Source: Robiginitomaculum sp. (GTDB lineage: Bacteria > Pseudomonadota > Alphaproteobacteria > Caulobacterales > Maricaulaceae). Taken from it: 64,000 nt of DNA. This document shows positions 3,719 to 53,873 of this stretch, piece after piece. The position numbers were made by a program, and so were the translations under genes. Under the pieces are notes generated by a model. The model had not been told where the DNA came from, made no database searches, and was given only the letters and a program-made list of their open reading frames with translations. Location of the stretch: positions 237,837 through 301,836 of the forward strand of contig NVWK01000001.1 of NCBI GenBank assembly GCA_002733605.1. The letters are read 5' to 3'. Positions within the stretch are counted from its first letter, which is position 1, and each line of letters begins with the position of its first letter.

Positions 3719-3834
3719 TCAAACGGATAAACGGTTTCGCATCAGGTACAATGGGCAACTAGGCTCGCACTTGACACCATATTGATAATCGGTAAGTATT
3801 CTTCACAGTATCTAAGCCAGATCGTGGGGAAATC

Positions 3835-4434
3835 ATGCATATATTTAAAACCATCCTATCATCGGGAAGCCTTGTTTTAAGTCTTGTGGCGACAAACGCA
3901 TTTGCAAGTGACCAGACCTCCAACACGCCACAGAGCGATACAAAAACAACACCCTGTAGCGGTCTCGTCTCTTCTGACCCCGAACGCATGTACGATTTTA
4001 AAATGGGGGAATGGGATATCTTGTGGAAAAACATGCGGGCCGATCGTAGTATTGATGTGTTTCCCGCTGTTTCAAAAGCCTATGCCATTGTAGATAATTC
4101 CATCTCTATTGACGAACAAATTGCAGACACATTCCAAGGCATCACATTTCGCACATATAACAGTGCAAAGAAAGAATGGGTGATCCGGTGGATGCCGTCC
4201 TATTCCGGTGATCCAACGCCAATCACCGCAAAACTCGAAAACTGTGTCCCCGTAGAGCGGCACATCCAAAAAGTCGACGCAACAACAAATGTAAAAGCGG
4301 TAACGCGCTTCACAGACATCACACCAACCAGCTTTAAATTCAGACAAGACTGGTCATGGGACGATGGAAAAACGTGGGTAAAAGATGTGTTATATTACGA
4401 AGCAACCCGCAAGGCATCAACCTCTATGCCTTAA
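3835..4434 (+). CDS. Exported protein of unknown function resembling DUF1579-type lipocalin-like proteins
   Basis: A 199-residue protein with a clear Sec signal peptide, probably cleaved after NAFA near residue 24. The mature part begins with a low-complexity linker and then carries YDFKMGEWDILWK. This motif resembles the FxxGxWxxxW opening of small beta-barrel proteins annotated as DUF1579 or similar. Two cysteines in the mature part (near residues 40 and 138) could form a disulfide. No catalytic motif is visible. It converges on the M20 peptidase gene with a 3-bp gap. The function is unknown. Confidence 0.6.
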   Translation: MHIFKTILSSGSLVLSLVATNAFASDQTSNTPQSDTKTTPCSGLVSSDPERMYDFKMGEWDILWKNMRADRSIDVFPAVSKAYAIVDNSISIDEQIADTFQGITFRTYNSAKKEWVIRWMPSYSGDPTPITAKLENCVPVERHIQKVDATTNVKAVTRFTDITPTSFKFRQDWSWDDGKTWVKDVLYYEATRKASTSMP

Positions 4435-4437
4435 GGC

Positions 4438-5910
4438 TTATTCTCCCGCCTTCTCCAACATCAGATAATAAACCTGTACAGCCTTGGCAAAGGTTTCAAC
4501 ACTCATGCGTTCATTCAGCCCGTGAAAACGGGCCAAATCGGCAGGCGTAAGTGCATAAGGCGCAAAGCGGTAAATATCATCAGTAATAATCGCAAAATAG
4601 CGGGAATCAGTGCCACCAACAACCGTGTTGGGTGTGACAATTGTTTCCGGAAATGTCTGGCGAACGACATCTTCTAGCCACAGATACGGGCCACTGCCGA
4701 TTTGCGAGATCGGGGAAGGTTCCGAACCAATATTGCCCGACAGGCCAATCTCGACATTAGGATCATTAATCACCTTACGTACATGCTCTGTAACACTTTC
4801 CACACTATCGCGACTGTGCAAACGAAAATTCACATGTGCCACGGCCTCACGCGGCAGAGCGTTTTCTTTAAACCCAGCCTCAATAATCGTCGGCGCAATG
4901 GTTGTGCCAAGAACGGCATTCATACTATCCGTACCCCGCATTTTCTTTTCAACAAGTGGTTTAAACAGCCATAAATTAGCAATGGCCATCCGACTCATGA
5001 AATCCTGATCTGCCGAAGTCGCTTTCAACATTGCGGTACTGACCGCGTCCAGACCACTTTCAAACGGGTGGCTTTCAATCGCGACAATCGCTTTGCTCAA
5101 CGCCCCAATCGCCGTGTAGGGCGGCGGTGTTGACGAATGGCCACCCCGCGCTTTGGCGGTCAGAACAAGGGTCAAATAGCCCTTTTCTGCAACCCCGATC
5201 AACGCAAGCGGGCTGTTCACCCCCGGCATGCCTGACAAAATCGCACCACCTTCATCAATGACTGCATAAGGGGCAACACCGCGCGTTTTCAGCAACTCCG
5301 CAATGGCTTTCGCGCCACTTCCCGCAACCTCTTCATCATGACCAAACCCAAACATCAGTGTACGCTTGGGTTTAAACCCGCTGGCGGCAAGACGATCTGC
5401 CGCCTCCAAGAGGCCAATCAGAGAACCTTTATCATCAATAGTGCCCCGCCCGTAAATAAACCCGTCCGCAATCACCCCGTCAAACGGAGGATAGTCCCAG
5501 CCAATGCCCTTCTCTTCACTCGCAGGCACCACGTCTTGATGCGCCAGAAATACAATCGGGGCCAGTGAAGGGTCGCTCCCCTGCCAAACATTCAACTGTG
5601 CATAATCAACCACTTGTTCGCTTGCCACGGCCGCGTAAAAATTCGGGTAGGTTTCCAACAACCAAGCTTGAAAACCGAGGAAAATTTGCCAGTCCGTATC
5701 CTCCCGTTTTTGGGTGGTAACGGTTTTGAACTGAACCGCTCTGGCCAAATTTGCGGCGACCACATTTGCATCCAAGTCAATAAGTTCTGCAGGCGTCACA
5801 TCGCTTGTTTGCACCGGTTTGTGCGCCGAAATCGTCCGAAAAACAACGATGCCTGCCAAAACAGCCAGCAACAGAATTCCAGCCAATAAAAATTTGAGAA
5901 ACTTGCCCAT
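4438..5910 (-). CDS. M20 family metallopeptidase with N-terminal membrane anchor (PM20D1-like)
   Basis: A 490-residue peptidase. Residues 5-24 form a hydrophobic anchor or uncleaved signal. AHQDVVPAS carries the metal ligand His near residue 124 and the Asp near 126. GRGTIDDKG near 155 has the bridging Asp, and GHDEEVAGSGA near 192 has the general-base Glu pair. The layout and the long N-terminus fit the carboxypeptidase S / PM20D1 subgroup, zinc enzymes acting on N-acyl amino acids or dipeptides. A GGGATG ribosome-binding site lies before the ATG at 5910. It is divergent from pyrB. Confidence 0.9.
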   Translation of the reverse strand: MGKFLKFLLAGILLLAVLAGIVVFRTISAHKPVQTSDVTPAELIDLDANVVAANLARAVQFKTVTTQKREDTDWQIFLGFQAWLLETYPNFYAAVASEQVVDYAQLNVWQGSDPSLAPIVFLAHQDVVPASEEKGIGWDYPPFDGVIADGFIYGRGTIDDKGSLIGLLEAADRLAASGFKPKRTLMFGFGHDEEVAGSGAKAIAELLKTRGVAPYAVIDEGGAILSGMPGVNSPLALIGVAEKGYLTLVLTAKARGGHSSTPPPYTAIGALSKAIVAIESHPFESGLDAVSTAMLKATSADQDFMSRMAIANLWLFKPLVEKKMRGTDSMNAVLGTTIAPTIIEAGFKENALPREAVAHVNFRLHSRDSVESVTEHVRKVINDPNVEIGLSGNIGSEPSPISQIGSGPYLWLEDVVRQTFPETIVTPNTVVGGTDSRYFAIITDDIYRFAPYALTPADLARFHGLNERMSVETFAKAVQVYYLMLEKAGE

Positions 5911-49843: not shown

Positions 49844-49860
49844 AATTGGAGAATAAGTTT

Positions 49861-51918
<2,058 letters not shown>

Positions 51919-51929
51919 ATAGAGAAAAA

Positions 51930-51956
51930 GGCGCCAAGCCTTTCAAGCTCAGCGCC
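51930..51956. terminator. Hairpin after rpoD
   Basis: GGCGC and GCGCC pair, with a second AGC/GCT step inside, and the T-rich CTAATTGTTATTTTTT follows within a few bases. It starts 12 bp after the rpoD stop and ends 7 bp before the end of the convergent 39-residue gene. Confidence 0.5.
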
Positions 51957-51963
51957 CTAATTG

Positions 51964-52083
51964 TTATTTTTTAGTTTTCACACGAATTGGGAACGCTTTC
52001 TTACCAATACTTTTGGCATATAAACGTTTCCCATTTTTCAGTGTAATGTATGAAACGAAAATAACTTCGTGTTCTTCAGACAT
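51964..52083 (-). CDS. Small basic protein of 39 residues
   Basis: The frame MSEEHEVIFVSYITLKNGKR...RVKTKK is preceded by AAGGAG at ideal spacing from the ATG at 52083, which is the best support for its being real. The protein is basic towards the C-terminus, has an acidic start, and looks like a small beta-strand-rich domain (VIFVSYITLKNGKRLYAKS). No function can be given. It converges on rpoD and is divergent from the candidate small RNA. Confidence 0.65.
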   Translation of the reverse strand: MSEEHEVIFVSYITLKNGKRLYAKSIGKKAFPIRVKTKK

Positions 52084-52102
52084 ATTCTACTCCTTAAATG
52101 GA

Positions 52103-52133
52103 TTGACAAATATGCAAAAAGTCACAGTATGTA
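52103..52133 (+). promoter_or_regulatory. Candidate promoter of a small RNA
   Basis: TTGACA at 52103-52108 is a perfect -35 box. TATGTA at 52128-52133 is a -10 candidate at a rather long 19-bp spacing. Transcription would start near 52140 and meet the strong terminator at 52170-52201. Confidence 0.4.
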
Positions 52134-52139
52134 GTTGCT

Positions 52140-52201
52140 AAACTGAGTGTGGCTTTTTGCACTCATAAGGGCGTTGGTGAATTTCACTAACGCCTTTTTT
52201 T
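52140..52201 (+). ncRNA. Candidate small RNA of about 60 nt
   Basis: Between the promoter at 52103-52133 and the terminator at 52170-52201 lies no frame worth calling. The RNA would fold into a first hairpin (GAGTG/CACTC, 52145-52165) with a U-rich loop, and then the terminator stem. Small size, own promoter and Rho-independent end are the usual features of a bacterial sRNA. There is no proof of transcription. Confidence 0.4.
52170..52201 (+). terminator. Strong Rho-independent terminator with no coding gene upstream
   Basis: GGCGTTGGTGA and TCACTAACGCC form an 11-bp stem (one G-T pair) with an ATT loop, followed by seven T. Its direction is plus. The nearest plus-strand gene, rpoD, ends 250 bp earlier with its own hairpin, so this one must serve a short separate transcript. 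Confidence 0.8.
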
Positions 52202-52225
52202 AATTTTTCATCTATTTACATCACA

Positions 52226-52576
52226 TTATCTCTCCCTCCGTTTTAACTTCCAGCGGCCACCATCATATAGCAAACGACCCTCTCGCTTTAACCGAGAAAG
52301 TTGGGGTGAAAGTGAAGTCCTAAGCAAATTCACACGCTTTACTTTCAACATTTTCAACACCTCCAAAGCCGCTAAACCATCTGAATAATCTGCTAATAAT
52401 TCCAGTACATCCGCCTTTATTGACCCCTCAATAACTTCAGGCGGATTATCCCCTGACGCCCTATTTACCACACCAACAACCTTAAGCAGCGCGCCTTCAG
52501 CCACCCTCAGTGCCGAAATCTTCCCCTCCAGCTCCAAAATTTGCAACCGTATTTGTTTTAATAAATCATCACTCAT
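52226..52576 (-). CDS. Winged-helix DNA-binding-like protein with N-terminal coiled coil
   Basis: A 116-residue protein. Residues 1-35 form a heptad-like helix (LLKQIRLQILELEGKISALR). Residues 50-112 look like a winged helix: IKADVLELLADYSDGLAALE, a second helix, the recognition-type SLSPQLSRLKREGRL, and a wing ending in GGRWKLKR. This module occurs in small alphaproteobacterial proteins of unknown role. An 8-bp inverted repeat lies just upstream of its start, which suggests self-regulation. Confidence 0.65.
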   Translation of the reverse strand: MSDDLLKQIRLQILELEGKISALRVAEGALLKVVGVVNRASGDNPPEVIEGSIKADVLELLADYSDGLAALEVLKMLKVKRVNLLRTSLSPQLSRLKREGRLLYDGGRWKLKRRER

Positions 52577-52860
52577 GCGCCTCTCTTAGCGGAATCCATA
52601 CCATATGTCAAGAACGGATTCCGTTTATCTTAAAATCAAGATTCCTTATTTTAATTAATAAAAACAACTAGATATAAGATATAATATAAAAATTAACCAT
52701 AAATTATTCACGGACTCGCCTGAAAAAACTTACCCCCACCGCCATTATGAACAAAAAAAGGACTCACGGCACACCCCTCTCTATTCACCACTTGAAATAA
52801 AAAAATAAATACATACATAATCAACTAGCAATACATATTTAGTATAAGGTGGTATCGTTA
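52577..52860. other. AT-rich 284-bp divergent spacer
   Basis: It separates the winged-helix gene from the rolling-circle-like gene. Near the left end are the GGAATCC/GGATTCC repeats; the middle is almost pure A/T (GATATAAGATATAATATAAA), a possible promoter area or replication-origin-like sequence. At the right end AAGGTGG (52846-52852) is the ribosome-binding site that sets the GTG start at 52861. Confidence 0.6.
52590..52645. promoter_or_regulatory. Inverted-repeat operator upstream of the winged-helix gene
   Basis: CGGAATCC (52590-52597) and GGATTCCG (52616-52623) are a perfect 8-bp inverted pair with an 18-bp spacer. A further half-site, AGATTCC, lies at 52639-52645. The first arm is 14 bp from the start codon of the winged-helix gene, a suitable place for autoregulation. 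Confidence 0.45.
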
Positions 52861-53457
52861 GTGACAATATATAGTACCAGTTACATAAATAGAAGGAGCG
52901 CGGAGAACCTGTTTCACGCAAGACGGTATGCTGAAAGTATGGGGGTAAACCTAAATTACCTAGTATCGATAAACTGGGATATATTAGGAGTTTCCGATCT
53001 GGACTCCACAGCGCACTTCAAGGAACTCAAGAAAAGGGTTTCAAGAGCATGGAAGTACCATACAAGCCTCGATGGCAGCGTAGGGGGTTTTTACCATCTA
53101 GAAGTTCAGGAAAATCCGAATGGAAAAACAAATACACACTGGTTACTTCATGTCGAAAAAGGGGCAGTTAAATGGCTTAACGAAACAATTGAAAATAGGC
53201 TTGAAAAAGTACTACTTTGTACGTTGCCGGACAACGCGCTTCATATGATGCACGTTCCACGCTCTGGCACATTACTAAAATATCTAAACAAAGGTATGAA
53301 TCCACTGTATGCAGCGCACTTTCACGTAAACCATGAAGATCAAGGAAAGATTACAGGGCAACGAACGAACACAAGTAGAAATCTTGGGCGAAACGCGAGA
53401 AAGAAAAACAATTGGCGACGCAAGAACCGCTTAACCAAATTTCAACGTGACATATGA
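52861..53457 (+). CDS. Rolling-circle-replicase-like (HUH-type) protein, uncharacterised
   Basis: A 198-residue protein from an AT-rich gene unlike its neighbours. The start is GTG at 52861, with AAGGTGG before it. Three blocks recall HUH nucleases: LNYLVSINWD near residue 31, ENPNGKTNTHWLLHV at 84-98 in the place of the metal-binding HxH, and KYLNKG at 140-145 matching the YxxK catalytic-tyrosine motif. A GQRTNTSRNLGRNARKK tail follows. The first histidine of HxH is Asn here, so activity is doubtful. The family is inferred from motifs. Confidence 0.5.
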   Translation: MTIYSTSYINRRSAENLFHARRYAESMGVNLNYLVSINWDILGVSDLDSTAHFKELKKRVSRAWKYHTSLDGSVGGFYHLEVQENPNGKTNTHWLLHVEKGAVKWLNETIENRLEKVLLCTLPDNALHMMHVPRSGTLLKYLNKGMNPLYAAHFHVNHEDQGKITGQRTNTSRNLGRNARKKNNWRRKNRLTKFQRDI

Positions 53458-53873
53458 TTAAAACGTTCCACATCCAAACCTCCGGCCCCGGCCTGTTCGA
53501 GTTTACGCACGACGTCACCCGCTTCGTCTCTGAAAGCGACCTAGACACCGGCCTTCTCACCCTATTCGTACAACATACCTCCTGCTCTCTGCTGATACAG
53601 GAAAATGCAGACCCGGATGTGAAACTGGATATGAACGGGTTTTTCTCACGAATGGTGCCGGACGCGAATGATGCCAGCATGCAGTGGCTCCGCCATACCT
53701 GTGAAGGGCCGGACGATATGCCCGCGCATATCAAAGCGGCGCTGACACCCGTATCCCTATCGATTCCGGTCAGTAATGGACGGCTCGCGCTCGGCACATG
53801 GCAGGGGATTTATCTGTTTGAACACCGCAACTCCGCCCATAGGCGCAGAGTGATCGGGCATTTAAGCGCGTAA
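53454..53873 (+). CDS. YjbQ/UPF0047 family protein
   Basis: A 139-residue protein of the YjbQ fold. FVQHTSCSLLIQENADPDV near residue 43 and RLALGTWQGIYLFEHR near 111 contain the conserved His, Cys and Glu residues. Some members show weak thiamine-phosphate synthase activity, and the true role is debated. The start overlaps the stop of the preceding AT-rich gene (ATGA), although the two differ strongly in composition. Its stop touches that of yqeY on the other strand. Confidence 0.92.
   Translation: MIKTFHIQTSGPGLFEFTHDVTRFVSESDLDTGLLTLFVQHTSCSLLIQENADPDVKLDMNGFFSRMVPDANDASMQWLRHTCEGPDDMPAHIKAALTPVSLSIPVSNGRLALGTWQGIYLFEHRNSAHRRRVIGHLSA

Follow-up and report, generated by a model that had tools for sequence, protein, structure and literature searches.

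A 64,000-nucleotide stretch of a Robiginitomaculum sp. contig (hereafter the window) holds, downstream of rpoD, an AT-rich gene whose protein carries motifs of the Rep-like HUH nucleases, with asparagine at the first histidine of the HUH site. A first-pass annotation made from the letters had suggested that the gene may be a domesticated single-tyrosine nuclease or a relict. The locus raises the question of whether this is an enzyme kept by the host, a decayed remnant, or an intact gene of another origin.

Gene Structure and Genomic Context

The features of the gene are listed in Table 1. The 198-codon frame runs from a GTG start at 52861 to a stop at 53457. A chance open frame is unlikely, as none of 2000 base shuffles of the gene remained open, and the whole length of the protein is covered by homologue alignments; the gene is an intact frame and not a chance ORF. 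Re-reading of the sequence confirmed the coordinates, strand, frame and motif blocks of the first-pass annotation: LNYLVSINW at residues 31-39, ENPNGKTNTHWLLHV at residues 84-98, KYLNKG at residues 140-145 and TSRNLGRNARKK at residues 171-182. The C-terminal tail is basic. The HUH position reads N91-x-H93 (AAT at 53131-53133 and CAC at 53137-53139), so that the first histidine is replaced by asparagine, as had been noted.

Table 1. Features of the gene and its surroundings, in window coordinates
Feature	Coordinates	Strand	Basis or remarks
HUH-fold (Rep-like, single-Tyr) protein gene	52861..53457	+	198 aa, GTG start; homologues and AF2 model
Probable ribosome-binding site AAGGTGG	52846..52852	+	read from sequence; about 8-9 nt 5' of GTG
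Motif I / strand beta1, YLVSINW, residues 33-39	52957..52977	+	alignment, AF2 model
Glu84, predicted third metal ligand	53110..53112	+	E in 32/33 members, D in one
HUH position Asn91-Thr92-His93, first His replaced	53131..53139	+	sequence, alignment
His97, additional histidine on the strand of the HUH position, near-invariant	53149..53151	+	alignment
Motif III, Tyr141-x-x-Lys144, helix alpha3	53281..53292	+	alignment, AF2 model
C-terminal GxxxGxR-x-x-TSRxLG-x-x-ARK block, conserved; low confidence in window model	53344..53406	+	
Neighbouring 116-aa AT-rich ORF, possible winged-helix protein	52226..52576	-	ORF list, genome search

The GC content of the gene is 41.9% (GC3 0.41), compared with 51-55% for the housekeeping genes dnaG, rpoD, yjbQ, carA and carB, which bears out the earlier remark that it is more AT-rich than its neighbours; 1.9% of the other 597-bp stretches in the window are equally AT-rich. 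The gene is flanked by rpoD (49846-51918) and a yjbQ-like gene (53454-53873), which it overlaps by 4 bases. The AT-rich stretch begins after rpoD and contains the HUH gene together with the minus-strand 116-aa ORF. By eye, this ORF reads as a coiled coil plus a winged helix; it had no Pfam match above the cut-off and no family match, and it is patchy, being present in four of 299 genomes of the order. It was considered as an obligate partner of the HUH gene and rejected, because its relatives occur where no HUH relative was seen. Between rpoD and the small ORF, which are convergent, lies a 14-nt inverted repeat (52113-52161) whose arms are 93% complementary around a loop of 21 nt; it is probably a two-way terminator.

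The HUH gene was absent from all 13 other same-genus genomes searched. The spot between rpoD and yjbQ was compared through the ORF lists of the sibling genomes, whose rpoD genes are only ~80-83% identical to that of the window. The content of the interval (51919-53453) varied among congeneric genomes (loci L061 and L062). One sibling (G324) has a toxin-antitoxin-like pair there alongside a hypothetical gene, and another (G078) has an M24-peptidase-like gene after rpoD, all named from sequence and not by profile. Because these genomes hold different genes at the same place, the interval is a variable spot, a small insertion hot spot. No integrase and no AlpA or winged-helix relatives of the island genes described below were found within the window, and the window copy has no surrounding mobile element.

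Relatives and Their Distribution

The window protein alone had no match in Pfam, PHROG or NCBIfam, and a first scan of the genome contigs with this single protein found no relatives. Sequence searches of solved structures, with the single protein and with a profile, returned chance matches only. Relatives were identified by tblastn and genome search. Of 398 genomes of the order, six besides that of the window contain relatives, with 37-39% identity for the nearest, and more members were found in further genomes of the class. Clear matches were present on 11 plasmids, at 24-33% identity to the window protein, and a Phaeobacter relative used as query led to further plasmids (R. palustris pRPA and plasmids of A. 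pusense, S. fredii and Acetobacter). Nine named genomes with relatives belong to the Rhizobiaceae, Sphingomonadaceae, Roseobacteraceae/Paracoccaceae and Acetobacteraceae. The carriers are alphaproteobacterial plasmids and integrase-bearing islands, plus one Bordetella plasmid. The earlier observation that the gene is not linked to a transposase or plasmid gene holds within the window, but the family as a whole is borne by mobile elements. Phage records and four IMG/VR scans gave no relative by the patterns used, and there is therefore no evidence for a viral source.

A profile search, which the first-pass annotation had proposed as a check, gave a divided answer. The window protein had no match to Pfam PF23343 (REP_ORF2-G2P), and a search of its own genome was likewise empty, whereas three relatives with an intact HxH (L005, L007 and L008) matched this family weakly (6.5e-5 to 1.2e-3), with a best score of 23.6 bits against the Pfam cut-off of 27.8 bits. 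Their clade was joined to the window clade by profile comparison (hhalign 99.0-99.7%), and the link of the window clade to a curated family runs through these three proteins. The likeness to REP_ORF2-G2P consists in their profile alignment and a common fold class; the difference lies in scores below the cut-off and in the nature of the window family as an accessory gene of plasmids and islands. The family is unnamed and undescribed, and comprises small single-tyrosine Rep-like HUH proteins.

Plasmid and Island Contexts

A separate Rep or RepA is annotated on the Paracoccus, Bordetella, Labrenzia, Xanthobacter and Neorhizobium EC2-8 plasmids that carry the family gene, and also on pAtCFBP6624, pRPA, pSfHH103a2 and pC. 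Another carrier, pRm1132f, has been assigned to the rolling-circle systems (PMC10194956), and a different protein of this plasmid, of 358 aa, matches Rep_1 (PF01446). The Rep_1 initiators belong to the HUH superfamily and are co-resident with a family member on pRm1132f, but they are a separate protein there, and there is no sequence match between the family and Rep_1. With another Rep or RepA on most carrier plasmids, the family protein would not be their sole initiator.

A gene of the 'recombinase family' (serine-recombinase-type) lies next to or near the family gene on pRPA, pC, BPP5P1 and pAtCFBP6624, and within several genes of it on others. Eight chromosomal relatives (L075-L078, L080, L081, L083 and L084) have a tyrosine integrase nearby, several of them together with AlpA-like helix-turn-helix and small winged-helix genes; these genes were called by Pfam for L075, L076, L077 and L083, and by sequence similarity for the other loci. 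The nearest relatives of the window protein (L003 and L004) occupy one common chromosomal locus in one genus, beside a carboxylase gene, and no integrase was seen near it.

No hairpin or nick-site candidate common to the members was found beside the genes; the few hairpins present are unrelated, and none lies by the window gene. A REP-associated tyrosine transposase (Y1_Tnp, PF01797) was also considered and rejected, with no Pfam match and no flanking hairpins. On pAtCFBP6624 (L019, ~3799-4670), the family member lies between two palindromes whose arms are similar, TAACGCAT/ATGCGTTA, the first 175 nt upstream of the gene and the other just downstream; these may be sites of binding or nicking. 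The family gene of the Agrobacterium/Neorhizobium group adjoins, and is divergent from, an S24-peptidase (UmuD/LexA-like) gene (L012, 7369-8624; L016, 4475-5621), with a Y-family polymerase gene also present at L012, suggesting possible SOS control. The member on R. palustris pRPA (L091, 6692-7318), a plasmid in development as a vector, is labelled 'hypothetical protein'.

Predicted Fold

The AF2 model of the window protein was of middling confidence (pLDDT 68.7, pTM 0.67), with the element order beta1-alpha1-beta2-beta3-alpha2-beta4-alpha3 and Tyr141 within a helix (residues 135-144) after the fourth strand. The model of the Phaeobacter relative, which has an intact H-x-H, showed the same order at higher values (pLDDT 90.2, pTM 0.84). 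In Foldseek searches of the PDB, the window model matched the AAV2 Rep origin-binding domain first (E 2.1e-3, probability 1.00), followed by E1, AAV5 Rep and others, and AAV Rep again led the matches of the Phaeobacter relative. The E-values of the top PDB matches were between 1e-3 and 1e-2, none reaching 1e-3, with TM-scores of ~0.4. Against viral models, 17 matches had E<=1e-3, among them replication gene A and ORF2/G2P proteins. The models thus support the HUH fold class proposed in the first-pass annotation, without a close structural relative: both have the RRM-like HUH core and share their best solved-structure match, the nuclease domain of parvovirus/AAV Rep, which differs at ~11-13% identity and TM ~0.4, the window protein being bacterial and lacking a helicase domain.

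Of the hallmarks of the superfamily, the RRM-like core is present in both models and the catalytic tyrosine (YxxK) lies in the helix after beta4, whereas the two histidines on beta3 are represented in the window protein by N-T-H. This lowers the certainty of activity more than that of kinship with the HUH proteins, which is well supported. Glu84 is near-invariant and, by alignment and fold position, lies on the strand expected for the third metal ligand, a role in coordination that is predicted.

A comparable replacement is known from the HUQ Reps of CRESS-DNA viruses (circovirus, smacovirus), which resemble the window family in the order of strands and helices, in the exchange of one HUH histidine for an amide residue and in a glutamate as third ligand, a role that for the window family is predicted. 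Smacovirus Rep has the element order of the models, its beta3 bearing the His/Gln and its alpha3 the tyrosine (PMC10833120). In duck circovirus Rep, Mn is held by His52, Gln54 and Glu44, giving a working enzyme with a non-histidine HUH position (PMC9973303); from its place in the fold, we infer that Glu84 is the equivalent of Glu44. In the HUQ Reps it is the second histidine that is replaced, by glutamine, whereas the window family has Asn or Ala in place of the first histidine, or Asn in place of the second, and the extra conserved His97 is a further difference.

Active-Site Conservation and Selection

Conservation was counted in an alignment of 33 collected family members. Tyr141 and Lys144 were present in 33/33, which upholds the single-tyrosine YxxK motif first read from the sequence, and Glu84 and His97 in 32/33 each. 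The HUH pair was H-x-H in 20 members, N-x-H in six (the window protein included), A-x-H in three and H-x-N in four. The refuting condition proposed earlier, homologues that conserve neither the histidines nor Tyr141, is thus not borne out: the tyrosine and at least one HUH histidine are retained in 33/33, and double loss was never seen. Outside this set, Lys144 is missing in one plasmid member and His97 in two: the pRPA member is H-x-N with His97 replaced by Arg, and the pC member of A. pusense has Lys144 replaced by Gly and His97 by Tyr.

On a tree built without the HUH columns, the four states need six changes, and H-x-H versus the rest needs five, from which it follows that a single-histidine change recurred within the family. 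The window protein and its two nearest relatives, which form a clade (100/96), have N-x-H in common; the Agrobacterium/Neorhizobium group, in which a close relative (L033) is H-x-H, acquired it separately. The dN/dS ratios of nine related pairs were 0.04-0.30, values that are rough, since several dS were near saturation. Three of the pairs were N-x-H/N-x-H, with ratios of 0.05 (L012/L032 and L016/L032) and 0.26 (L003/L004). One pair with no usable dS (L014/L034) was left out, and all pairs were among relatives, the window copy being too distant from any of them for inclusion. N-x-H proteins are thus maintained by purifying selection in the relatives, and by this comparison Asn at the first HUH position is best read as a recurrent family variant and not as a mark of decay. 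The description of the gene as a relict is not supported by these data.

Discussion

We consider it probable, at roughly 0.6, that the window gene came from a mobile element by horizontal transfer and encodes an intact, probably still functional nickase-like protein of the HUH type, with an auxiliary role. Judging from the fold and the conserved residues, Glu84 and His93, in a site completed by Asn91 and/or His97, would hold a divalent metal at the scissile phosphate of DNA that is single-stranded or extruded as a hairpin. With the aid of Lys144, Tyr141 would attack and remain joined to the 5' end, and religation would follow. A role of His97 in the metal site is a suggestion from the models, because it shares a predicted strand with residues 91 and 93 at even spacing. 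Since another Rep is present on most carrier plasmids, the part of the protein in its element would be to assist in nicking and rejoining DNA, and not to act as the main replication initiator. The window copy would have been acquired horizontally, and stands alone in the variable spot. That mobile elements carry the family as an accessory gene, and that the window gene is missing from 13/13 same-genus genomes, argues for recent acquisition over a fixed host function and speaks against the gene being domesticated.

Catalysis by the window copy is plausible by analogy with the HUQ enzymes, in which metal is bound although one histidine is replaced (PMC9973303). Asn91 could nevertheless reduce cleavage or prevent it. 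It seems unlikely that the family has kept the HUH fold and lost catalysis, acting as a DNA-binding regulator (e.g., of plasmid copy number or a neighbouring promoter) that retains Tyr141 and Lys144 for DNA contacts. The replacement of one HUH histidine in 13/33 members through about five changes on the tree would fit such a regulator, as would the basic tail and the presence of another main initiator on most carrier plasmids. Against it stand the invariant Tyr141 and Lys144, the near-invariant Glu84, the HxH kept in 20/33 with never a loss of both histidines, and the HUQ enzymes, which hold metal and cut with one histidine replaced (PMC9973303).

Equally doubtful, as an extension of the preferred reading, is the idea that these nickases assist another replication initiator, are often found by a serine recombinase, can have either HUH histidine swapped repeatedly since His97 and Glu84 carry the metal, and fill a new role in plasmid maintenance.

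We regard it as improbable that the gene is the decaying rolling-circle initiator of an inserted small plasmid or island whose other genes have since been lost: the rolling-circle Rep fold and motifs, the integrase-bearing islands of chromosomal relatives and the solitary, patchy window copy agree with this, but another Rep occurs on most carrier plasmids, including pRm1132f with its Rep_1-matching protein, the window frame is uninterrupted and preceded by a probable ribosome-binding site, and no origin-like hairpin lies near it. A non-HUH protein, in which an unrelated RRM/ferredoxin-like domain resembles the motifs by chance, is very improbable, for although RRM-like folds are common, the window protein itself has no family-library match and some Foldseek matches (PII, GGDEF) are unrelated, the PF23343 matches of the relatives, the two models and the top fold matches agree independently, and the invariant Y/K and the E/H are at the expected places.

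The gene sits as a 'hypothetical protein' on the long-studied pRm1132f, on R. palustris pRPA and on other alphaproteobacterial small plasmids and integrating elements, and recognition of the HUH fold gives this unnamed plasmid gene a concrete, testable activity. As its members occur naturally in H-x-H, N-x-H, A-x-H and H-x-N forms, the family would make it possible to ask how much of the HUH motif single-tyrosine nickases need. If the histidines are indeed swappable over a His97/Glu84 site, the metal site of the family would be an alternative to that of other HUH proteins.
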